This document shows, piece after piece, positions 5,889-62,300 of a stretch of DNA of 64,000 bases. The stretch spans positions 621,475-685,474 of the forward strand of contig KV748250.1 in the NCBI GenBank assembly GCA_001692895.1. Reading direction: 5' to 3'. The position numbers and the translations under genes were made by a program. Origin of the DNA: Cenococcum geophilum 1.58 (taxonomy: Eukaryota; Ascomycota; Dothideomycetes; Gloniales; Gloniaceae). How positions within the stretch are numbered: position 1 is the stretch's first letter; every line of letters begins with the position of its first letter. Below the pieces are notes generated by a model. That model did not search any database, was not told the DNA's origin, and saw only the letters and a program-made list of their open reading frames with translations.

Positions 5889-8480
5889 ATGGCTACTTTT
5901 ACTAACCAATTAGTGGCTAAGTATAAGGAATATCTAAAAACTGTTAATAACCCAAGTGTTCTCAATCTGGAAGAGGAAGCAGGCTCTATAGTATAGAAAG
6001 TAATAGAGACTAAGAAGGCCAGGCTACAGGGTGCTAATCTAGAGTATTACCCCTAGAGCACTTAGTATAACGAATATTTCGCTACGGCTATAAGTTAGCT
6101 AGATAGTTAGGTAAAATCGGAGGAGACTAGACGGGAGGGATCTGGGAGGGAGGAAGAGGAGGAGGAGAGAAAGGAGGAGAAGGAGGAGGAGGGGGAGGAG
6201 GAGGAGGAGGAGGAAGAGGAGGAATCTAAGGAAGCTGGGGAGGAAGCTAAGGAGGAACCTAAGGTAGAACCTAAGGTAGAAAAATAGGCTAAGGCTAAGG
6301 GTAAGGTTAAGGGTAAGGCGAAGGCTAAGGCTAAGGCTAAGGCTAAGATTAAGGCTAAGGCTAAGGCTAAGGCTAAGGCTAAGGCTACTAAGGCTAAGGC
6401 TAAAGCTAAGGCTAAGGGTAAGGCTAAGGTTAAAAAGGAGCCTAGTAAGGGTGCTAAAGGGATAAATAGCATTCCCTATAAAAGTATAGAGAATAGTAAA
6501 GAGAACGAGCCTATCGACCTTATAGGTAAAGATGACTTAAAGGAGGACCCTAAGTATGGTCGATTATTATATTATAGGCCTAGTCCAAAGAAGGTAAAGA
6601 GTATGCCTATAATAACTATTAGGTAAATCAGCGGAAGGGGTATTAAGTACATTAACAAATACGGACTAAAAAGTCATCTAAAGTATTAAATTAAGTCATC
6701 TACGGCAGATTTTTAGTATAAAGAGAATCTGCTAGAGAACTAAAAAGTTAGTAACCCTTTTAATTAATATAGAGACTAATGACTAAATAATGGCAAATAT
6801 AAATATACAAGGCGTTATATTAATAATATTTTTGGAGTTACTTAGTTTATAAAGGGCGTAGTTAATATAGATACTAAGGCCGTCGAAAACAGACTTTGCA
6901 CCTGTACGTGGTGACGGCTACGAACCTAGGTCTTCGAAGTTCAGACTTAGAGCTAACGCAGAGACGTCGTATAGCGTGCGATAGGACCTAGTGGTCGTGG
7001 TTGTGAGCGTTATAGGCGGTGGTGAAAATTTTTCAGATGGTAAGATCTCGAAAACCACTACTATGGCCCTCTATAATTCAGCTACGCTATTCTCCTATTA
7101 AGGCACCTATACAATCCAACGTGGATATACGGCATTTAATAGTATCCCCCGACCCCTAATAGAAAGCATTAACAACCTCTTATATTGACGAACGAGCGAT
7201 CGCGAACGAATAAGCAGACGAATAAGCAAATATACGGCCCCTCCTAACCCCCAGGGCGATCGCCCGCGGAGCATACGGTCACTCGCCGTTTTTTCTACCA
7301 AATACTACCTAGCAGCCTGGATTGCGACCCACGGTTTTCCCTGTCTTCTTTCAACGGAGTAGTAACCCTTAGAAAGGGCCTAGCTAGGGCCTAGGCATAA
7401 AAGATACCCAAATACAACATAATATCCCGCTCGCTTATTAGTATTACGGTAGTTAGAACGGATGAATCCCCCTTACGCCTTCGATAGGCCCTAGGGGGGG
7501 GAAGGTATAGCGTATATAGCAATAGTTAGACAAGAAATAGTATATAGGGGATGGCTAAGATATAGGAAACAGCAGTACGGCAATTAATTGGCAAGGCCTA
7601 GCTGGGACGTAGTGAACCCTAGCTAGGGTAAGCTAGAGAAGGAAGCAGTGGTTCCTAAAGAGTTTAAATATCCAAGGAGGATAGGACGTAGCCGTAGACC
7701 CGTAGGGCCGCCGCTACGGACGGACATGGCAAATTAGGGTTTTTTATCCTACTGAGGTGGCTTATAGGGTTTTTCCTCCCCCCTAGCAGCAAGGGTTTTT
7801 TCCCATCAATATTACTTTTCCCTTGTATACAGAGTAGTCTGCGTAGGGCTAAATAGCATCCATATCAGACGTTAATTAAAGAATTATTATTATTATTATT
7901 ATTAATATAGATACTGAGTTAAATCTACTTAATCTAGATATAAAAGGAGATAAGAGGTACGGTCCTTACTACGTCTTAATTGATTAGGATATTGATAGCA
8001 AGTTAGAGAAAAAGTAGGAGACTAGAGTAACTCTATAATTAAGATAGGGAGCGTAGATTACTAACTAGGCGCTTTATAATTCTGCTACTATTGCAAAAGC
8101 TAGATTTTCTAAGTTTGTACTAAATAAAGAGCTAAAAAGAAGCAGATCTCCTTCTATTAAGCTTACTACGGGAATAGCCCGTATATTCCGTAATTAGTTA
8201 CTTAGGGGATTACCAGCTCTAATAGCCCGTTTATTACCCGCTTGCGTAGGCCGGTTATCACCCGCTTATATAGGCTGGCAATTACCTACTATAAGCTAGG
8301 CCATTGACGAGGATTCTACGCGTAAGGAGTTTAAAGAAGATTACTTTTTAATAATAGGAGTTAGCTACTTCCGTAAACTTACTCTATAGGAAAGAGGGGA
8401 ATGCCTAGTAGTATAAAACCTAAGTAAGGTAAGCTTAGGTTTTTAGGGTTTAGGTTAAGTAACTAAGTAAATTACGCTAC
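5889..8480 (+). pseudogene. Decayed gene with acidic and Lys/Ala-rich centre, split by an insertion
   Basis: The frame opens at ATG 5889 (MATFTNQLVAKYKEYLKT...) and stays in register through a glutamate-rich tract (6120-6235) into a long Lys-Ala/Lys-Gly tract (6290-6440). It then runs through a lysine- and proline-containing segment to about 6870. From about 6290 to 6622 it is open. After the insertion at 6876-7901 the same gene appears to resume (about 7905-8400) with a charged stretch containing RSRSPSIK. Stops outside the low-complexity part are TAA/TAG at likely glutamine codons. The E-rich plus K/A-rich composition recalls chromatin or nucleolar proteins, but this is only composition. 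The long antisense open frame at 6107-6472 (Leu/Ala-rich) is a shadow of the GCTAAG repeat. Confidence 0.5.
6876..7901 (+). mobile_element. LINE/SINE-like insertion, probably 5'-truncated, with 14-bp target duplication
   Basis: The sequence TTAATATAGATACT is present at 6862-6875 and again at 7902-7915, flanking about 1.03 kb whose composition (CA- and CG-rich) differs sharply from the RIP-degraded gene around it. The right end is a (TTA)n tract at about 7880-7901. A simple-repeat 3' tail plus a long target duplication of irregular length is the mark of target-primed reverse transcription (LINE or SINE). I see no reverse transcriptase motif, so it is either a 5'-truncated LINE end or a non-autonomous element. 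The minus-strand open frame at 7107-7301 has no recognisable domain. The element entered a gene and has largely escaped RIP, so it is younger than its surroundings or present in few copies. Confidence 0.65.
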
Positions 8481-31450: not shown

Positions 31451-31730
31451 ATAAAGGTATAGATGTGATTAATGACCCGTTAGAGAATATNAGCATGGAG
31501 AGATAATTGCTTAATTAATTAAGGTTAGAAAGTTTTATATAAGGCCTAGAAGATATATACTCCTGCTTGCGTAAAGGTGGCATTTTGCGGGTAATTATCG
31601 GGAAATGGCGGTTTGGAGAACGCTATATGTGGCTTTACGCCACTTAAACTCTATTTAATACCTTAGCTACACTCTCGCCATCTCTACGTATGTATGTATA
31701 TATGTATATTCTATTCGCCATCTTAACAAG

Positions 31731-31779
31731 TGTGGCCGGTGCGGGTCGGCCACCCTCCCTGTTTATAGTGGCGACATCT
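31731..31779 (+). repeat. Left 49-bp inverted repeat
   Basis: GC-rich block with GGTCGGCCACCCTCCCTG; its inverted partner is at 36701-36749. It interrupts a strongly AT-rich context. Confidence 0.8.
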
Positions 31780-32289
31780 TATTATAAGCCGCTTTAATTA
31801 CTGTTATATATAATTATACGCATGCTTATATAACTCAAACGTTCCGCATTTATAACCCGTTGCTTTAGATATAAGAAAAACGCACCATCTGGGGCTTTTG
31901 CTAGTCCTATTTACTATATAATCCGTTAGAGCTTTAAGTGATAATGTTTTAATGGTCTGGACAACTTAGAGCGGTATATCTATCTTAATCTAATATGTAA
32001 TCTAGTCTAGAACGTTTCTTAAATAGATGTTTTAGAGGTTTTATTTCTACTACTCTTTCCGTATAACACATTAATGTATCCTAAGTTAAAGGTAAAAGTA
32101 TTGGCTTTAGCCTGACCCCTTACAGACCGATAAGAGCTGTATTATAGTAGCTGCCTATTCTAACGTGGCACCACTATGTAAGCATAGCCACAACCTTTAA
32201 AACCTTATCCCGACTCCTGTTAGCCTTCTCTATTTATCCTCTTTTATAACCCTTATGCTATTGCAGTATATATCTTCTCGCCGATTATT

Positions 32290-33900
32290 ATGTTATTTGG
32301 TTTCGCAGTTAGCGACTTTATCGCCGCCGGCACGCTTATTAAAGACATTATTACGATTCTCTGCACCTTAGCGCGATCTAAATATTAAGAGCTGCTGCTT
32401 AAGCTACACGGCCTCTAGTAAGCTTTGTATTAAATCGAGCACCTAAAAGCTCTACTAGAACGGTAGATATATATTATAAGTATTAAGGTCGCTGCGCTTA
32501 TATATATATATATTCTAGACGAATTCGCGGGCAAGTTTAAGAAGTTTAAGAGTCTAGCTGGCCAGCCTAGGAACTCTAAGGTGAAGATATGGACTCAGAA
32601 ACTGTGGTGGGGATTTACTATAGCTAATGAAGTGCGTAATTTGCGGGCGTATATTATAGCGTATGTCGGAAGCCTAAATATAAGACTACTTATAGAGGAG
32701 TTGTTAGATTTCCCCTCCCCCTTAAATCACATAATTAAGCTAACTAAACTTTATATAGATCTTCTATATATATAATAGGCGAAAGGTTTAAAAGGACCCA
32801 AACGAGCCTTATTAAGGTTTGTGAGAGTACTAAAGTAACTAGTAAGATTATGCAGAGTATACAGTTAACTTTAGAAAAGATTGCTATAGTAATAATAAGG
32901 TAAGCATCCTCTTTTATAGCATTTTGTAGTATACTAATAAGTAATAAGCGATGTAATTCTATAGCTAAAAACGCTAGTTAAGCAAGTGGCTAGGATATAG
33001 TAATTAAATGCTAAAGTTATTAGTCTCTTAGTTAAAATGCAAGAGTCCTTTACTCTAGCTTTGCAGTATACTTAGTTCTAAGCCCTAATGAAATTTAAAG
33101 ATGCTCTAGGGAGAGTTTTCCCTATTCCCTCGGAATTTAATTAGCTTATATAGCTAACCCTTTACATTTATTACATTATACTAAACGAGTAGCAGAAAGT
33201 TAAAGCTATAATAGTAGCGCATTTCTTGACAAGACCTAGTTATACTAAAGTTGCCGCTAGGGAGTACGAGTTATTTAATCCCTTAGATAGTTTGGAGGTT
33301 ATCTTAAAGTCTAACTTTAATAACCTAAGACTGGGCATGAGCTTAACTATAGTATTTATCCTTAGCTGATATTCCTATATATTTGGCGGAAATAAATGAT
33401 GTCTAAGACTAGGCTGTTAAAGCTCTGCCTTTACTTTATCGAACGGCGAGAAGTAATGGTAATCTATTACTAACATCGCCTCTAAAATTATACTCGCTAA
33501 TTTATAGCACTAAATGTAATATATGCTTTAAAGACGCACGTACTCGGCTTTTATTACCCTACCGCGATAATACCCTTAATTGGTTATTTAAGGACTATAA
33601 CAGCTTAATAAGAACCCTTTTACCGCGGAAAAAAAAAGGAATAGACATATAGAATAATAATAGCATTAGCGTCCATTTCTATAAAGTCGCTAGGAAGGAA
33701 AGACTATGCTTTAAAAATATCCGGCTAAGTTACCTTCCGCTTCCCTAAACGCCTCCCATTAAAAACATAAGATATACTCTAAAGTAGAAGCGTCGAGATC
33801 CACTAAAATCAGTAAAGGAAACATAACTTAAAGGAGGCTATAAGAGTCTAAATACTATTGCTAAGGAAAATCATCCTAAAGCTTATATTAAGAATGCTAT
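32290..33900 (+). pseudogene. STAND-type N-terminal domain plus ubiquitin-like domain protein, decayed
   Basis: From ATG 32290 the frame reads MLFGFAVSDFIAAGTLIKDI, then a helical region (KFKKFKSLAGQPRN, KLWWGFTIANEVRNLRAYI, VGSLNIRLLI; open at 32581-32775). This is the pattern of the alpha-helical N-terminal domain found on fungal STAND and related proteins (FGFSVGDF... start, KxxWxxFxxxEVxxLRxxI motif). Further on, LKMQESFTLAL-like text leads to FKDALGRVFPIPSEFN (about 33086-33133) and YELFNPLDSLEV, typical of the ubiquitin-like domain that follows such N-termini. A cysteine pair with SSAFTLSNGEK lies near 33400-33460. The frame changes between the two domains, where an intron (GTAAGC at about 32900) is likely. 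No NACHT or NB-ARC P-loop is visible. The end and its relation to the TPR gene downstream are uncertain. Confidence 0.65.
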
Positions 33901-36052
33901 TAACTCTTAGCGAGCTAATTACGGTATTAAGCAAAAGGTAGGTCTAATGCCCGGCTTTTTTATATATCCTAACACAAAAGTAAATCTAAATAGCGTAAAC
34001 CACCCCGGCGTAACTTATAAATCTAACTTTTCCTAATAGGCCCTATCCGTTTTCTCCGAATTTGGTATAAGTAATGATAATAGTAGATCGATTATATCGG
34101 CCGTAACTATAACAGCAGTAAAACTTCGGCTACTAAGTTATAAACCTTAACTTTATAAAGGTACTTTAAGTTCTTAAAGGCTACTAGAGGCAGAAAAGAA
34201 GGCGCTTAGGGTAGATAATCTAGATACGCTAACTAGCATGGCCAACCTAGCGTTAACGTATAGGAATTAAGGGTAGTAGAAGGAGGCCGAAGAGCTGTTT
34301 ATATAAATAATAGAGACAAGTTTAAGGGTACTTAGGGCGGAATATCTAGATATGCTGACCAGTATGGCCAACCTAGCGTCGACGTATAGGAATTAAGGGC
34401 GGTAGAAGGAGGCCGAAGAGCTAGGGGTATAAGTGGTAGAGATAGGTTTAAGGGTGCTTAGGGCGGAGTATCCTTCTACGCTAAGTAGTATGGCTAACCT
34501 AGCGTTAACGTTTTAAAATTAAGGGTAGTAGAAGGAGGCCGAAGAGCTAGGGGTGTAAGCAATAGAGATAAGTTTAAGGGTACTTAGGGCGGAGTATTTA
34601 GATACGCTGACTAGTATAGCCTACCTAGCGTTAATGTACAGGAATTAAGAGTAGTAGAAGGAGGCTGAAGAGCTAGGGGTATAAATAATAGAGACGAGTT
34701 TAAGGGTACTTAGGGCGGAGTATTTAGATACGCTAACTAGTATAGCCTACCTAGCGTCAATATATAGGAATTAAGAGCGGTGGAAGGAGGCTAAAGAGTT
34801 AGGGGTATAAGTAATAGAGATAAGTTTAAGGGTGCTTAGGGCGGAGCATTCTGATATACTAACTAGTATGGCTAAACTGGCGTTAACGTATAGGAATTAA
34901 GGGCGGTAAAAGGAGGCTAAAGAGCTAGGGGTATAAGTAATGGAGATGAGTTTAAGGGTACTTGGGGCGGAGTATCCTAATACGCTAACTAGTATAGCCA
35001 AACTGGCGTTAATGTATAGGAATTAAGGGCGGTGGAAGGAGGCTAAAAAGCTAGGGGTATAAGTAATGGAGATAAGTTTAAGGGTGCTTAGGGCGGAGTA
35101 TCCTAATACGCTGACTAGTACGGCTAACCTGGTATTAACGTATAGGAATTAAGGGCGGTAAAAGGAGGCCGAAGAGCTAGGGGTATAAGTGATAGAGATA
35201 AGTTTAAGGGTACTTAGGGCGGAGCATCCTAATACGCTAACTAGTATAGCTAAACTGGCGTTAACGTATAGGAATTAAGGGCGGTAGAAGGAGGCTAAAG
35301 AGCTAGGGGTATAAGTAATAGAGACGAGTTTAAGGGTGCTTAGGGCGGAGCATTCTAATACGCTAACTAGCATGGCTAACCTGGCGTTAACGTATAGGAA
35401 TTAAGGGTGGTAGAAGGAGGCTAAAGAGCTAGGGGTGTAAGTGATGGAGATAAGTTTAAGGGTACTTGGGGCGGAGTATCCTAATACGCTAACTAGTATA
35501 GCTAAACTGGCGTTAACGTATAGGAATTAAGGGCGGTAAAAGAAGGCTGAAGAGCTATTTATATAAGTAATAGAGACGAGTTTAAGGGTACTTAGGGCGG
35601 AATATCTAAATACGCTAACCAATATAGCTAACCTGGCGTTAATGTATAGGAATTAAGGGCGGTAGAAAGAGGCTAAAGAGCTAGGGGTGTAAGTGGTGGA
35701 GATAAGTTTAAGGGTGCTTGGGGCGGAGTATCCTTCTACGCTAAGTAGTATAGCTAAACTAGCGTCGACATACAGGAATTAAGGGCGGTAAAGGGAGGCT
35801 AAAGAGCTAGGGGTGTAAGTAGTAGAGATAAGTTTAAGGGTGCTTAGGGCGGAGCATTTAGATACGCTAACTAACATATATAACCTCGCATTTGTGTTAA
35901 AGTCCTAAAGCCGTACTAAAGAGGCCATTTTACTAATAGAAAAATGCTTTTAAATACGGAAACAGATCCTTGGCCCTCAGCATCCTCTTATAAAGAAATT
36001 ATTTAAAGCCCTAAATAAGTGGTAGATAGAGAATATAGTAATAGAACTTTAA
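33901..36052 (+). pseudogene. Kinesin-light-chain-type TPR protein, 14 repeats, RIP-degraded
   Basis: A plus-strand frame carries thirteen consecutive 42-residue (126-bp) units from about 34200 to 35880. Each unit has the pattern DTLTSMANLALTYRN.GR.KEAEELGV, followed by ETSLRVLRAEYP. The array ends with the divergent cap NLAFVLKS, EAILLIEKCF, ILGPQHP and ALNKW (35880-36050), the usual end of TPR arms in fungal NLR-like proteins. Positions of Gln and Trp in the consensus (RNQGRWKEA) are nearly all TAA/TAG here, so each unit has two or three stops, yet no indel is seen in 1.7 kb. TPR arms serve as ligand-sensing or protein-binding surfaces. The gene lies inside the inverted-repeat-bounded segment and may be the 3' part of the gene at 32290. 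No nucleotide-binding domain is visible. Confidence 0.88.
34212..35885 (+). repeat. 126-bp tandem coding repeat (TPR units)
   Basis: Thirteen near-identical 126-bp units, with GGAATTAAGGG recurring every 126 bases from 34262 to 35774. The differences between units are mostly C/T and G/A. Confidence 0.9.
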
Positions 36053-36242
36053 AACGACTTTATATTATAGGTTATATACTTAGGCGTAACTAAGAAAAGA
36101 TTATTAATAAAATAGGGTTAGTAAAGACCTAAAAAACCTGTTATTCTTTGCGTGTTGTCTAGAGCGATAAGTTTAGACTATAACACTAAAGTGCAAATAT
36201 AGAACAATTAATCTGTATAAGTATACTTATAAGTAATATCTA

Positions 36243-36680
36243 ATATTATAAAGGTCGGTAATATAGCTAATTACACCTTCCTAATTAGGCAGTTAGATTA
36301 CTATCTACTAGAAAACTCCCTATAGAGCCTTAAAAGTACTAGAATATTTTATATAATATATCTAGGTATTAAGTAGATACTAAGGATATTAGAAATTAAG
36401 GTTATAGAAGCTTTTACTAAAGCGTAAAGGAATATACTTTACGGTTGCACGGTTTTTAGGCGCCTTAGCCGCCTAACTGTCTAACCGTAAAGAAACCCTG
36501 TTAACTTCTAAAGTAGTAGCTTCTAGGCCTTAATTTACTTATTTTTTATACCTAAATAACAGTTAGATAGATTCTATAAAATATTTTAGTATTTTTAAGG
36601 CTCTATAGGGAGTTTTCTAGTAGATGGTAATCTAACTGCCTAATTGGGAAGGTGTAATTGGCTATATTACCGACCTCCGT
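36243..36680. mobile_element. Foldback element (MITE-like) with ~120-bp inverted arms
   Basis: The arm at 36243-36365 (GGTCGGTAATATAGCTAATT...CTCCCTATAGAGCC) is repeated inverted at about 36540-36680 with only a few transitions. Between them lie about 175 bases without a gene. The structure would form a long hairpin. I could not define a target duplication. It sits between the TPR gene and the right 49-bp inverted repeat at 36701. Confidence 0.75.
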
Positions 36681-36700
36681 AATTAAAGTAATTTAATACT

Positions 36701-36749
36701 AGATGTCGCCACTATAAATAGGGAGGGTGGCCGACCCGCACCGGCTATA
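36701..36749 (-). repeat. Right 49-bp inverted repeat
   Basis: Inverted partner of 31731-31779; see the segment entry. Differences from the left copy are G/A and C/T changes. Confidence 0.8.
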
Positions 36750-36789
36750 CCTTTATTAAGGTAGCATTTTCTAAATATTAGCGCGGTTA

Positions 36790-37060
36790 AAGCTACGATC
36801 TACTTTATATATAAAGGTGGCAAGCTTATTAAGTTTGCTTTAAGCGAGTCTCTAACTTTAATCTAATATATAAAAAGTTTTTTATTTCTGCGTAAGTAAT
36901 AAAGAGATATTCTTAATATAGAACTAACTAGATAGTAATAAAATATTACCTAGCTATAACGCATAAAAGAACGAGCTAAGGAAATCCTAATTAATACCTT
37001 AATTCCTAATAAATGCTAAAAGAATATGATTGCGAAAATCTTTCCTCTTAAGAAATTTCT
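36790..37060 (+). pseudogene. Paralogue of the MADS-like gene C-terminal region
   Basis: This stretch matches 26050-26290 in order and orientation: TCTCTAACTTTAAT, ATTCTTAATATAGAA, GCTAAGGAAATCCTAATTAA, AATAAATGCTAAAAGA and AAGAAATTTCTTA all recur. The plus-strand reading gives SLTLIQYIKSFLFLRK and ILNIELT, like copy 1. The upstream MADS-like part is missing; the right end of the inverted-repeat segment lies only about 40 bp away, so the insertion may have removed or separated it. The minus-strand open frame at 37060-37311 (lysine-rich) is adjacent and of unknown meaning. Confidence 0.5.
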
Positions 37061-47869: not shown

Positions 47870-48260
47870 TATTTATCTTAGGGGGGGCCCAAAATAGGAC
47901 CCCTAGCGGTTAAACTGGGCGTTAAGGGCAGTGTAGTACAGGAAAGACAGGCCTGTATTTTTGCAGCGGGCTGAGAATATAGAGGAGGCAGAAGGAAGAA
48001 GGCGGCACGGCACGGGCGCATGATTAGGAGCGCTTGCGCGGAGGTTAAGAGGGGGGAGGAGGAAAGGGAGGGAGGAGCGAGCGAGAAAGAGAGAGGCGGC
48101 GAGGTTAAAAAACTGGATGGCGTTTTCGATGGAGGCGCGGAACTTTAAAAAGAAAATAAATTACTAAATAAAACGGTTAGTTTTCCGCAAGGGCCACGGA
48201 AAAACGTGGATTCCGAGTGGTGGCTTGGCGGAATGTTTACGGCTCCACAGACGGATTTGC
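47870..48260. other. G-rich lead-in to the satellite array
   Basis: Composition changes abruptly at about 47880 from AT-rich RIP-degraded DNA to purine-rich, CA- and CG-containing DNA (GGGAGGAGGAAAGGGAGGG near 48050). No gene is seen. It is probably part of the same insertion as the array that follows. Confidence 0.4.
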
Positions 48261-49990
48261 TTGAAGCCCAATACGGAGCTGCAATGCTCTACTAACACGC
48301 AGCACTAATATACTAGGAAGTCTCACAATCGTCTCTATAAACGTCTCTACAAACACCTCTACGACTGCTCTATAATTGCCCGTACAATCATCCGTACAAA
48401 CGGCTCTACAAACAGCTCTACAAACGTCTACATGATCGCCCGTACGAACGCGCATATAATCAATTGATCGATCGACCAAACGCCCATATAATCGATCAAT
48501 TAAACGCCCGTACGAACGTCTCTACAATTGCTTATACAATCAATCAGCCAACCGATCAATCAATCAACCAAACGCCCGTACGATCGTCTCTACGTACGGC
48601 TCTACAATCGATCAGTCAAATGCCTATACAATCAATTAGACGCCCGTACGAACGCCTGTACAAACAATCAATTAAACTTCCATACGATCAATCGATCAAA
48701 CGCCCATATAATCAATCAGACGCCCGTATAAACGTCTCTACGAGCGTCTACAAACGTCTCTACAAACGTCTCTACGAACGTCTCTACGGACGTCTACAAT
48801 TGCCCATACAATCGTTCGTACAAACGTGTGTACGAACGCCTACACGGACGCCTGCATGAACGCCTATATAATACTCTACCAAAGCTCTATAAAAGCTCCG
48901 CACGAACCTCCGTATGAAGCTCTACTAAAGCCTCTACTAAAGCCTCTGTAAGAGCTCTGTCCATGCAGTAAATAGAGCACGTAGTGTGCAGGGGGGGGTC
49001 CAAGGGGGTCTCCCCCTTGAACTTAAAGTTCTACTTAGAGCTCTACTTGAAGCTTAATATAGAGCTCTAAAGCTCTACTAATACGCAGTACTAATATACT
49101 AGGAAGGTTCTATAATTGGCCGTACGATCGTTTCTAAGAACGGCTCTACGAACGGCTCTATAAACGTCTGCACGATCGCCTATACAAACGCCTATATAAT
49201 CGATTAATTAACGTCTATATAATTAATCAGTTAAACGTCTATATAATTACCTATACAATCGTCTCTATAAACGTCTCTATAATTGATCGCCCGTATAAAC
49301 GTCTGCATACCTATATATAGCTCTATAGAAGCTCTATATAAAGCTTTACACGAAGCTCTACACGAAGCTCTGTAAAAGCTCTACCAAACGCTCTACCAAA
49401 GCCTCTGTAAGAGCTCTGCCCACGCAGTAAATGGAGCACGCAGTGCGTAGGGGAGGGGGGGGGGGGTTCCAAGGGGGTCTCCCTCTTGAGGTCAAAGCTC
49501 TACTTAAAGCTCTACTCGAAGCCTGATACGGAGCTCTAAAGCTCTACTAACACGCAGCACTGATAATACTAGGAAGGCTCTATAATCGTCTACACTAACG
49601 GCTCTACAAACGACCCTACGGACGTCTGCACGATCGCCCGTACGAACGCCTATACGAACGCCCATACGAGTGTCCATATAAACGCCTATACGATTAATCG
49701 ATTAATCGATCAATTAAACACCCATACAATCAATCAATCGAACGCCTATACGAACGATTAATTAAACGTCTATATAATTGCCCATACAATCGTCTCTATA
49801 AACGTCTCTGTAATTAATCGCCAGTATAAACGTCTGCACGTGGCTCTGCATAAGGCTCTACGCAAATCTCTGCACGAGGCTCTACTAAAGCTCTATATAA
49901 GCTACCTATCACATATCGGGGGGGCTTAGCCTTACTACTACTTCTAAATTAGGTAAAAGCTCTATATAGGGGGGGTCCAGGGGGTCCCTT
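48260..49990. repeat. Complex satellite array, little affected by RIP
   Basis: At least three diverged higher-order units start with CTCTACTAAYACGCAGYACT (about 48281, 49075 and 49545). Each unit is itself built of short words such as CGTACGAACGTCTCTACAA, AATCGATCAATTAAACG and GAAGCTCTA. The block GAGCACGYAGTGYGYAGG followed by a G7 or longer run, TCCAAGGGGGTCTCCC, appears at about 48975 and 49434, with a variant at 49965. Both strands are open over long stretches (48237-48479 minus; 48464-48859 and 48528-48731 plus), but the peptides are just translated repeats and I do not call genes. Confidence 0.75.
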
Positions 49991-50440
49991 CTGGAAAACC
50001 TTATATCTATATATATATATATATTAATTAAACTCTATATAATAAGGCTCTAAATTAAAGTTTTGGGTTAATCAATCGGCTTATTAGCTATAAAATCGGG
50101 TCAAAATTTTCGTTGGCGGGCCCAAACGATCTGTATGTTAAACCTCTTTATCTGAGGCCCTAGGTCCAAGGTCAATCGAGGGCAACTACAAGATCATTAA
50201 CCAATCAACCCATTTTATTAATGAACAGCTCAATACGAGTTTCGTAACAAGTTCTCTCCTTATAGTAAATCTCAGAATACAATTAGAGTTAATCTATTAG
50301 GCACCTTACTCCACAGTTTTAATTATTATCGATTGTTAAATCTATACCTATATACCTAGCCTAATAACGAGCCCACCGTAGTATTTCCTACAAGGTTCCG
50401 TTATATATTTACTACCATAGTTATAGTAGAAGACAATAGA
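49990..50440. other. Right flank of the satellite, possible LTR remnant
   Basis: It begins with a TATATA tract (about 50005-50025). The segment from about 50130 has TGTATGTTAAACC and CCTTACTCCACA at about 50325, which could be the ends of an LTR of about 200 bp belonging to the gag fossil that follows. This is weak, because the partner LTR is not in view. Confidence 0.25.
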
Positions 50441-57600: not shown

Positions 57601-58090
57601 CGTTGCAGACGAAGTTTCTTTTAAGATGTAGGGATATTATTAAGGCCTTCCCAGGCAGTGTATGGAGAGCTTAGTATAATGTGACCATCAGGAATTTTTT
57701 TTTTAGGCGCGTTATTGCGGCCGAATTTTAGGGTCTGCAAAACCAGCGTAAGTTGCGATTTTAGCGATTTGCGGCAACTTGCGGCGATTTACTATAAACG
57801 CACAGGCTACCTTAGCCAAATGTACCATAGCTTCTGCAGCCTACAGCTTCCGTAGCTTTTCGCAGCTTCCGCAGCTTTTCGCAGCTTCCGCAGCTTTTTA
57901 CAGCTTCTGTAACAAAATAGCTATAAAAAAAAATTTATATATAACACATAATGCTATCGGGTCCCCACTATATTCCCGATAGCCTCTACACGTGCCTCTG
58001 CTAAGTATACCCCTAGGTAGCCACCTTATTTTTTACCCTTCCTTCCTTACATCCTCCCTACCTGGGAGGCACCAGAACGGCAGCCAGTAG

Positions 58091-58490
58091 ACGACCGTCG
58101 CTAGAACTAGACGACCGTCGCCAGAACCAGACGACCGTCGCCAGACCCAGACGACCGTCGCCATCGCCAGACGACCGTCGCCATCGCTAGACGACCGTCG
58201 CCAGAGCTACCGTCGCCAGAGCTACCGTCGCCAGAGCTACCGTCGCCAGAGCTAGACGACCGTCGCCAGAACCAGATGACCGTCGCCAGAACCAGACGAC
58301 CAGACGACCGTCGCCGTCGCCAGACGACCGTCGCCGTCGCCAGACGACCGTCGCCAGAGCTAGACGACTGTCGCCAGAGCTAGATGACCGTCGCCGTCGC
58401 CAGATGACCGTCGCCAGAACCACACGACCGTCGCTAGAGCCACACGACCTCGCCAGAGCCATACGACCGCTGCTAGAGACAGACGACAAC
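58091..58490. repeat. GACGACCGTCGCCAGA minisatellite
   Basis: Variable 14-20-bp units around CCAGACGACCGTCGCCA, homologous to the nine-unit array at 17106-17285 but longer and more diverse. It lies in the shared core of elements A and B. Confidence 0.85.
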
Positions 58491-58564
58491 CGTTTAAACG
58501 ACCAGCCAGCGAATACTATAAACGATTCAATCGATAGATCGAATCAAGGTAATATAGACAGGTA

Positions 58565-58567
58565 GGC

Positions 58568-58622
<55 letters not shown>

Positions 58623-58655
58623 AACAGGTAGGCAGGTAGGCAGGTAGGTAGGCCC
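58565..58655. repeat. (GATA)n/(GACA)n and GGTAGGCA tracts
   Basis: About ten GATA units pass into GACA and then GGTAGGCA units. The position corresponds to the ACAGGTAGG array of element A (17530-17700). Confidence 0.85.
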
Positions 58656-59321
58656 CGGCGGATCGTTAGGAATACCGTTAATTAACGATTTAGAGCCTCT
58701 ATAAGAGGCTTTCCCTTTACCTAAGTAGACAGCTCTATATTTTATATAGTTATAATATAAATATATTTAAAAGTATATTATAGTAATCTGTGAAAATATA
58801 TAATTATTTAGTTATAAATTTAGAAAATATTTATTAAGGTGTTTTTTTATTGCGAAACGTGCGAAACGTGCGAAACGTGCGAAATGCATAGGCTCTGCGC
58901 GAGGTGCCGTAAAACGCACAGGCTCTGCGCGAGGTGCCGTGAGGTGCCGTAAAACGCATAGGCTCTTCGCAGGCTCTGCGTAGGTTGCCGTAAAACGTAC
59001 AAACCGCTAACGACCATATACACCTGCCGCGATTGTACAGTTTGCGGCAACTTGCCGCAAACTGCAACAACACGCCTAAAAAAAAATTTCCTGATGACGG
59101 CTTGCACAAATGCCTCTAAACCGAAGCTTGTGGATTGCTATCTAATGAAGATACTAAGCTAAGGAGAAGAAAAGAAGGGGGTCGCTAGGACTATAGTAAA
59201 CATATATAAAGGGGCAGCCGCTAAGGCGCTAGCGGTAAGCGAGCTAATCGTAGGTTGGCAGAATATGGCAGTAGCATGGCAGAATTTGGCAGGTGACGCG
59301 CTCTAGCACCGTCATATATGG

Positions 59322-62300
59322 CGTCTATTACTTTATAAGATGGAAGAAGAGGAATATATTACGGCGCTAGTAGAATATAGCAGAAGACTAGCAGAATATG
59401 GCAGAATACGGCAGATGCGGTTATATGGCTAGAGGATCTTATAAAACCTCAAGCGGCGCTACTATTTTTCTCCTTTCCTTTCTCTAGCTTTAGATCCTTA
59501 TTTAGAGATAATCCAATTATATAGGCTTACTTATATCTTCCTTACTATGCTCCCGCCTTAATTAACTAAGTTACTATTATTATCTAAAGCTTATCTACTC
59601 TCTCTTCCTAAGAAGGAACTTAAATATATCTATAATCTATAAATAGGACAAGGACATAGAAACGGACTTAAAAAAATATTACTAGAACTATATAAATAGA
59701 ACAGGACCCTAAGAATAGGATAGAACTAAAAGGATATATATAATACAACTTAAAGAACATGCACGGACTAGAACTCCTAAAGAAACTACCAGAAATTACC
59801 TAATACCCCTACCACTATACTAAGAAACACAGCAGCTGGTAAAGCCGCTATAGGACCTATAAATACCTCTAATAGTAAAATAGTCGCCATCTTAACCCCT
59901 AAGAAAGAGCTTACAGTAGCTAATACTAAAATTAAATAACTCTAAGAGCTGCTTAAGGCTAAAGACACCCTTATACCTAGTAAAGAGTTATTAGATACCT
60001 AGAGACTTACTATAGTCCTTAAGGCCCTAGCCTAATATATAGTATTAGTATTATCGCGGTCTATAAAGGTTATAGACCCCCTATTACTTATAGATGGAAC
60101 TAACCCTATATTTAATAATTAGAAGCTTTAACTATAAAATAAGCTTAAAGTTAATATAGACCACTTCCCTACTACTTAAGCTAAGATAGCCTACGTCTTC
60201 GGCTATACCGGCGGGGATATATAGACGCACTTACGTCCGCAATACGCTTAGGACTTAGCAGGCCCCTTTCTCTCTAGAGAAGAGATAATTAATTACCTAT
60301 CTTCTATCTATAAGGACCCCTTTAAGATATAAAACGCCCGCCTTAATTATAGAGCCCTTAATATAAAAATAATAGAGACCTTTTTAGCCTTCTAGACCCG
60401 CTTTCTATACCTAGCCGGTTAAGCCTAAATTCCTTATAAAGACCTAATACTAGACCTCTTTAATAAGCTTACCCTAGATCTATAGCACGCCGTACTACTA
60501 GTTTTTACTACTATATAGACGCTAAGGGTGCTTATAGGCTGCTGCCTAGCTGTTAACTAAGGCCTCTATTAAATAAAGGTATGAGCTAAGTAGTATAAAG
60601 CTAGAAACTCTTTAAACTAGACTATAAGTACTATAAGAACGGCCTATAGCGCCCTAGCACGATCCATAACTCCTATAGTACTAGCTATATAGCCCGCCGT
60701 CAATTCAGCAGCTAGCCACACAGCTAGTCCTACTGCGGGTCCAGCGTATACTTAGCCTATATATAACGACCCCTATAAATAGGCCCTTAATAATTAAGGA
60801 GCCTACTTTTTATATAGCTAGAAGGACTACTTTACCAAGGACTACCTAATAAAGGTAAAAATAAATAAGGTTCTATTAATTTAGGAGAATAGCGCGGAGT
60901 TAGAAAAAGAGGAACCCTAGAGGAAGACTCCTCTCTAGGGTTAAAAGGGATTAATATATCATATATTAATCTGGGTTGGCTAGTTAGTAGAAGAAGCTAT
61001 ACTATCCCTTATACTTTATTTCGTAATAAATATTAAGTTTTAACCTCTACTTTAGCTAACTCTAAAGCAAATACCTTTACCTTAATAGACATCCAGTATA
61101 CTATAAAGCTAGCAACTTTTTAAATATACCCCTTAAAGAACTACCTAAACTAATTCCTATTTATGGGTATAATAGAAGAATAGGGCTACTTATTATAACT
61201 ATCTTACGGATCTACCTCTATATTAACAGATAAAGGTAGTATAATATCTCCATTCTTATTACGGACCTAGGAAGCTATAATATAATCTTAGGAAGAAAAT
61301 AGTTAGCCTATTTAGGCTTACAGCTTAATATATAGAGTAGACGCCTTATCTAGCCCAAATCCCTACCCCTAACCCCTTCCTTTATAAAGGAAATCAGTAT
61401 TATAATAGAGAACCTTATACGGCCCTAGATTAATACTATTTACTAGGCTAATGCTATATATAGGGACTAGGCCTTTAAGAAAGATATATGGCTTAATCTA
61501 TAACAAATCCATATACTATATCGCCCTTAGACTACCTATATTACGCCACCACTACTAGAGACCTAGGAAGTTAGTAATGGCCTAGCTAAGCCCCCTATAG
61601 AGAACTTAGGCCCTATATATCTGTAAAGGAAGGCTAGGAATACTAGATACTATACTAAACTAATAGACTAAAGGGATAACTTATGGAAGATGGAATAGGA
61701 GCTAAGAAAAACTATAAACCTTATACCGTAAAATACAGCCTAACAAAAGTCCGTAAAGAAGCCTACGGACCTTCCCCTAGTTAATATCTGCTATATTAGT
61801 GCCGTAGGATTCTACTAGAACTTAGTCTAACCTAATACCATTACCTTTACCACTAGCTTGTATAAAATTAACTAAATAATTAAGGAAAGGGAAAGCGAGC
61901 TTAGCGGATAGGAAAGTAAGCTTATAAATAAGGAGCTAGTAGAACAGAAGCTGCCCTATTAACACTAGAGATTTAAGAATATATTCTCTAAGGCAGCGTC
62001 TAATATACTCCTACCTTACTAACTATATAACTATAAGATTAAGATTAAGCCAGATAAGGAAGACACCCTTAGTTATAGCCCCCTTTATTAGCAGTCTACT
62101 ACCAAATTATAGGCTATAAAGTAGTACCTTATTAATAACCTAAATAAGGGTTTTATTAAGCCTAGTTAAGTCCCTTTTAACTTACCTATTCTCTTTACTA
62201 AAAAGCTAAATAGAGGACTTTGTTTCTACATTAACTACTATAAACTTAATAATATAACCTACAAGGACCGCTATCTACTACCCTTATTTAATAAGACTTT

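Follow-up and report, generated by a model that had tools for sequence, protein, structure and literature searches.

Can DNA bounded by inverted repeats carry the genes with which a fungus recognizes non-self and disperse them through the genome? The question is raised by a segment of Cenococcum geophilum 1.58 located at positions 31726 to 36756 of the window, i.e., the whole stretch of 64,000 nucleotides analyzed here (contig KV748250.1, C75:621475-685474; our own numbers for contigs and loci start with C and L, respectively), which belongs to a fungal-like, repeat-rich assembly of 177.19 Mb in 162 contigs. In size and domain content it resembles what has been described for this species, a 178 Mb genome and gene families with HET, NACHT and WD40 domains (PMC5023957). 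In outline, a genome-wide pattern holds in which inverted-repeat-bounded DNA has carried NOD-like receptor (NLR)-type and HET-type genes. We consider it probable that these are non-autonomous mobile cassettes bounded by terminal inverted repeats (TIRs), with cargo consisting mainly of fungal non-self-recognition genes (NLR, HET and HeLo-type effectors). The segment in the window is one degraded member of this repeat-bounded family.

The segment is delimited by a left TIR (31726..31801, plus strand; GC-rich core at 31735-31759) and a right TIR (36679..36756, minus strand), the latter occupying the identical position relative to the cargo in a paralogue, L047. The inverted arms (31730-31801 versus 36679-36750) are 85% identical over 72 nt, with 47 of the first 50 aligned nucleotides identical, which confirms the GC-rich inverted repeat seen at both ends in a preliminary description of this DNA. 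A GC-rich 22-mer from this repeat is present in exactly 2 copies in the window and in none of 100 shuffles. Comparison with other family copies places the termini, ACAAG, at ~31726 and ~36756, the left one lacking 2 nt in comparison with the usual ACAAGGGTRTG; the sequence common to the aligned family ends is ACAAGGGTRTGGCCGGWGCGGGTCGGCCRCCCTCCC. When up to 3 mismatches are allowed, two 25-base patterns match 206 and 227 sites in the genome and the reversed patterns match 0, so that the family counts at least 227 members and a chance or local repeat is excluded by copy number and by the empty controls. A known structured RNA was also considered and rejected, there being no Rfam match at gathering score in the window, L067, L068, L050 or L058.

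The inner side of the repeats faces HET and NACHT genes genome-wide. We counted domain matches around 168 listed repeat sites out of at least 227, using the best 150 of 439 first-look candidates for HET, the best 150 of 154 matches (318 candidates) for NPHP3_N (NACHT), 82 places from 103 matches for p450 and 114 from 117 for PF13843 (piggyBac-type transposase), with extra pieces of the same gene dropped and the chance expectation assuming uniform placement over 177.19 Mb. Within 5 kb of listed repeats, there were 10 HET matches on the inner and 1 on the outer side, and 17 and 1, respectively, for NPHP3_N (n=150 and 0.71 expected per side in each case), amounting to an inner:outer ratio of 27:2 among the 300 listed (1.4 expected per side; binomial p 1.6e-6). 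The p450 control yielded 0 on either side (n=82; 0.39 expected) and PF13843 yielded 1 inner and 0 outer (n=114; 0.54 expected). At 10 kb, the inner/outer counts among the matches listed were 10/5 for HET, 21/2 for NPHP3_N and 0/0 for p450; at 20 kb, p450 reached 3 inner and 2 outer (1.55 expected). The majority of the listed HET and NACHT genes are not near any listed repeat, and therefore the cassettes represent one route at most.

Adjacent listed repeats within 20 kb point inward in 28 cases, outward in 6 and lie on the same strand in 5. The 28 inward pairs account for 56 of the 168 listed repeats, a fraction that is a floor because all 5 short stretches examined beside other copies of one flank module held a repeat outside the 168. 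Measured against the first refuting case of the preliminary description, repeats found mostly singly, only this minority of the listed sites has a listed inward partner; the second case, a short miniature inverted-repeat transposable element (MITE), does not fit, because the elements of the 18 pairs studied are 2.9-14.7 kb long and contain genes, with inverted repeats of ~40-230 nt at both ends. Fourteen of the pairs were picked by spacing alone, blind to cargo, whereas C8, C113 and C56 were added later, C8 with a known HET match. Nine of the 14 blind pairs hold NACHT, NB-ARC, HET or HeLo domains (C19, C9, C43, C31, C39 at 1.42 Mb, C7, C24, C37 and C12 at 1.98 Mb); the 14 together span ~118 kb, for which the chance expectation is ~0.5 even for all 757 first-look HET and NPHP3_N candidates. 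The depth of scanning varied: six read-through frames for L051, L064 and L056 (not L057), and chosen open reading frames (ORFs) for the remaining pairs, with the cargo calls for L052 and L065/L066 resting on other evidence, including tblastn and end homology. The three pairs added later are compact, namely the 2.9 kb L067 with a single HET frame of 695 codons, the 3.5 kb L069 with a HET+ANK (ankyrin) frame of 895 codons, and the 4.5 kb L068 with PNP-NACHT-ANK across three ORFs. Others combine several genes or domains, i.e., a HeLo-SesB gene and an opposite-strand NACHT-ANK receptor in L053, and SesA, NB-ARC-TPR, HET and DUF7104 in L058. The combination of NACHT or NB-ARC with a repeat domain that defines an NLR is found in L048, L053, L058 and L068. 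Locus L062 encodes an SBF-type transporter and a 475-codon ORF without a Pfam match (L062:1082-2506 and 6896-7561).

Related cassettes reside at unlinked loci, with homology ending at the repeat terminus. When ends sharing at least 300 bp inside were compared, homology broke between -4 and +7 nt relative to the ACAAG terminus in 14 of 18 comparisons, although these 14 breaks come from 16 ends in 5 cargo groups and hence lack independence. L064 and L051 contain the same HET cassette end to end, with different left flanks (in the L064 orientation) and right flanks that share the module F4, whereas L063 matches L058/L059 at both ends and in the cargo, with an internal loss and different flanks on both sides. 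A tandem array of a ~70-bp repeat within the HET cassette is far longer in L051 than in L064. Furthermore, the two arms of a pair belong together: they score higher against each other than swapped arms do (means of 113 and 62, respectively; p 5e-5, the smallest value that the permutation test can give), and the own partner ranks first for 11 of 18 pairs, with C56 in 15th place. TIRs with a defined terminus and dispersed copies with unrelated flanks are two features shared with class II TIR transposons.

What does the segment in the window carry? Its plus strand encodes, in order, a helical N-terminal region starting with MLFGFAVSDFIAAG.. (32290..32775), a ubiquitin-like domain, ULD_2 (PF22893; 33088..33360), degraded by repeat-induced point mutation (RIP), a linker (33380..34190) and an array of 13 TPR units of 42 aa (126 bp) with in-frame stops at RIP-type sites (34190..35925). 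The domains had been named in the preliminary description and are borne out to different degrees. The TPR matches are strong in profile scans of both the window and L047; the PF22893 match scores 23.7 bits in the window, slightly below the cut-off of 24.5, and 34.8 bits, above it, in L047; and the helical N-terminus matches PF17111 weakly, below the cut-off, and in the intact L047 relative only. The N-terminal region has no relative in the PDB at E up to 0.1. The linker is devoid of a nucleotide-binding domain, and no NACHT or NB-ARC was detected in the window (three plus-strand and two of three minus-strand frames) or L047 (three plus-strand frames), in agreement with the absence of a nucleotide-binding core reported earlier. 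On these scans, the window gene does not qualify as an NLR; given that L047 likewise shows no such core, its secondary loss from the window gene was set aside. By contrast, the claim that the segment contains two gene remnants did not survive: on the simplest reading, it probably holds a single gene, because the linker and the TPR array share a reading frame that is broken by stops alone, and L047 keeps the same order, with an insertion of its own (3.5 kb) separating the two. The N-terminal/ULD part is in a different frame, suggesting an intron between it and the remainder.

L047, on C12, is the better-preserved relative, with 80% identity over the N-terminal part. Relative to L047, the window has undergone mostly C>T and G>A changes, C>T affecting 75 of 118 CpA but 5 of 104 CpT sites, a bias that marks the window copy as a target of RIP. 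The window stops lie opposite Q, W or R of L047 in 7 of 7 cases in the linker, and opposite Q (4), R (1), K (1) and a stop (1) in the N-terminal part. The TpA/ApT ratio is 1.37-2.22 across every 2-kb block of the window, matching the expectation for RIP. GC-richer patches are embedded in this AT-rich, RIP-marked sequence at 48001-50000 (0.45) and 58001-60000 (0.44). The cargo and the right repeat are co-linear between the window and L047; leftward, homology ends at window position 32072, and the left repeat was not found in the L047 stretch examined. The outer sides of the right repeat differ between the two, the right flank of L047 resembling the left flank of the window. By eye, a HET-like start is discernible beyond the right repeat of L047, on its outer side. 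Inside the right end of the window segment and adjoining the right TIR, a nested, MITE-like inverted-repeat element with 144-nt arms (36245..36683) is not present in L047, which represents the site without the insertion.

Transposition of these cassettes, as deduced from sequence comparison, would involve repeats acting as transposon ends recognized by a transposase supplied in trans, so that a cassette and its gene would move or be copied as a unit, with RIP then presumably inactivating the duplicated copies. Several observations weigh against this scenario. No target-site duplication (TSD) was detected in the 18 pairs, either exact or RIP-tolerant (purine/pyrimidine), at k = 3, 4, 5, 8 and 10 with offsets 0-2, or exact at k = 4-9 with offsets 0-15. 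No transposase of the family's own was present in the scanned ORFs and frames of the examined pairs, with the single exception of a piggyBac-type domain in L056. Four of the 18 end comparisons (L021/L043/L044 and L004/L005) continue into the flanks as far as the flank sequence examined extends, as larger segmental duplications do; for the arms of the window, the own partner comes only 4th among 18; and 112 of the 168 listed repeats have no listed inward partner within 20 kb. Among the blind pairs, four have no more than WD40 or ankyrin repeats (C6, C11, C1 and, weakly, C39 at 0.19 Mb) and one (C26, L062) shows no immune domain. ULD_2, the own domain of the window cargo, is rarely near the repeats (by eye, 1 of 14 matches, that of L047). 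Finally, the outer flanks recur as a small palette of modules (F1 to F5) in varied left/right combinations, and the outer limit may therefore lie further out. The original proposal of a DNA transposon carrying NLR-type parts thus holds insofar as the repeats bracket and face immune cargo, but not with respect to TSDs or an own transposase; likewise, the genome-wide check it called for recovered related cargo with the same ends in different surroundings, but left most listed repeats unpaired, and no TSD and no readable empty site of any whole cassette turned up.

Several candidate hallmarks were rejected, namely GAATTC/AATT as a TSD in L048 and L053, which is palindromic flank sequence; TATA in L065/L066, which is 13 nt out; and the piggyBac-type transposase of L056 as the family enzyme, given that PF13843 is unlinked to the repeats genome-wide, a single one of its 114 loci lying inside a repeat at a distance of up to 5 kb. 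A DUF3435 captain was not among the Pfam matches of the scanned ORFs and frames, with no search aimed at DUF3435 made. Nor do the flank modules prove site-specific insertion; F6 looks LTR-like (long terminal repeat-like) and F2a is a MITE-like palindrome.

The flanks of the window segment are module F3 on the left (31657..31725; TCGCCATCTCT-ACGTATG..-TCGCCATCTTA), also found beside repeats in L009/L047 and L012, and module F2b on the right (36757..36810), also found beside repeats in L022, L026, L029, L052, L057 and L070-L074. Where F2b is followed by a repeat in L055:784-923 and L070-L074, CTCG, GAAA or CTTA lies between CGCCAC and ACAAG, with one base fewer in L071. Of 40 listed copies of F6, 10 are situated 42-95 bp beyond the outer end of a listed repeat, each of them facing it (L067:914-1139; C8, C9, C25, C85, C6, C2, C21, C1, C16), and the other 30 are not within 300 bp of one; at four places, same-strand copies are 5.7 kb apart, as for an LTR element. 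The repeat ends may attract a retrotransposon in one orientation. Just outside the terminus, direct repeats of ~10-11 nt (CGCCAT.., CGCCACGAAA, AGGCGACTTTA) surround a ACGTATGTATATATG-like unit, at window 31673-31726, in the right flank of L050 and in the left flank of L064; these are possibly traces of earlier insertions. Past the terminus, inverted outer repeats are present in L067 (226 nt), L064 (151 nt) and L053 (77 nt), and a second, diverged repeat lies on the outer side of the left end of L064. The original junctions may have been obscured by other repeats that inserted at the ends, or the repeats may understate the size of the unit.

The latter possibility, in which the repeats are internal and the true ends lie beyond the flank modules, draws on the finding that F2b was followed by a repeat in all 5 short stretches examined (of 8 chosen) and on the inverted outer repeats just described. 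We nevertheless regard it as very unlikely, because 14 of 18 comparisons lose homology at the terminus although both outer flanks were available, and F6 acts like an LTR-like repeat in its own right. Recombination offers a different explanation for the missing TSDs: the 200-plus GC-rich repeats might serve as homology blocks at which ectopic recombination or gene conversion exchanges or copies NLR and HET segments among loci, without transposition. The small palette of outer flanks in mixed left/right combinations and the second repeat of L064 would be readily accommodated. Yet free exchange would erase the likeness of same-pair arms, which are closer than shuffled ones, and both ends are retained among related cassettes (L063 vs L058/L059, L064 vs L051), which makes this route quite unlikely.

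Most listed repeats are unpaired among those listed, as would be the case for a short element that inserts preferentially beside NLR and HET genes and brackets them by chance; such a preference, however, leaves unexplained the 27:2 inner bias, the inward pairing (28 vs 6) and the cargo shared together with both ends, and we disfavor it as extremely improbable. The reading we prefer remains that of TIR-bounded, non-autonomous cassettes. A stronger version of it, rather doubtful in our judgment, is a dedicated gene-cassette system, in which a single end-repeat family has time and again picked up different NLR, HET and effector genes and spread them as ready-made units, enabling a RIP-active fungus to reshuffle its immune repertoire without tandem duplication, the ends serving also as landing sites for other repeats.

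A TIR-bounded gene carrier is a known kind of element. Pack-MULE and Pack-TIR elements are bounded by TIRs, lack a transposase of their own, carry host genes or gene fragments and are dispersed. The cassettes, with no transposase of their own in the ORFs and frames scanned, resemble them in these respects. Their cargo, by contrast, is concentrated in one functional class, with some long open frames, and they occur in a fungal host and show no TSD. Starships, also fungal mobile DNA, include an element with heterokaryon-incompatibility and NACHT genes (PMC9594970) and one NLR among the cargos of Gaeumannomyces Starships (PMC12134995). They reach ~700 kb (PMC12134995) and are characterized by a DUF3435 captain and TSDs (PMC9594970), unlike the 2.9-14.7 kb cassettes with inverted repeats at both ends, no TSD and no captain in the scanned ORFs. 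In plants, NLR expansion via retroduplication shows transposable elements enlarging the immune-receptor repertoire (PMC5664825), a similarly element-driven growth that does not involve inverted-repeat cassettes. The surveyed passages on NLR repertoires and clusters of ascomycetes, which concern the same gene class, argue for means of growth other than tandem duplication and do not mention repeat-bounded cassettes (PMC12258605). Within the titles, abstract openings and passages covered by our literature search, no inverted-repeat NLR/HET cassettes are described, nor, in particular, a family of small cassettes with mainly non-self-recognition cargo.

These findings bear on the growth of fungal NLR and HET repertoires in genomes whose duplicated DNA is mutated by RIP. 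A repeat found at the borders of such genes is a direct handle by which ends can be located, cargo catalogued and isolates compared. One family of short end-repeats bracketing many NLR and HET genes points to a transposon-like spread of immune genes.

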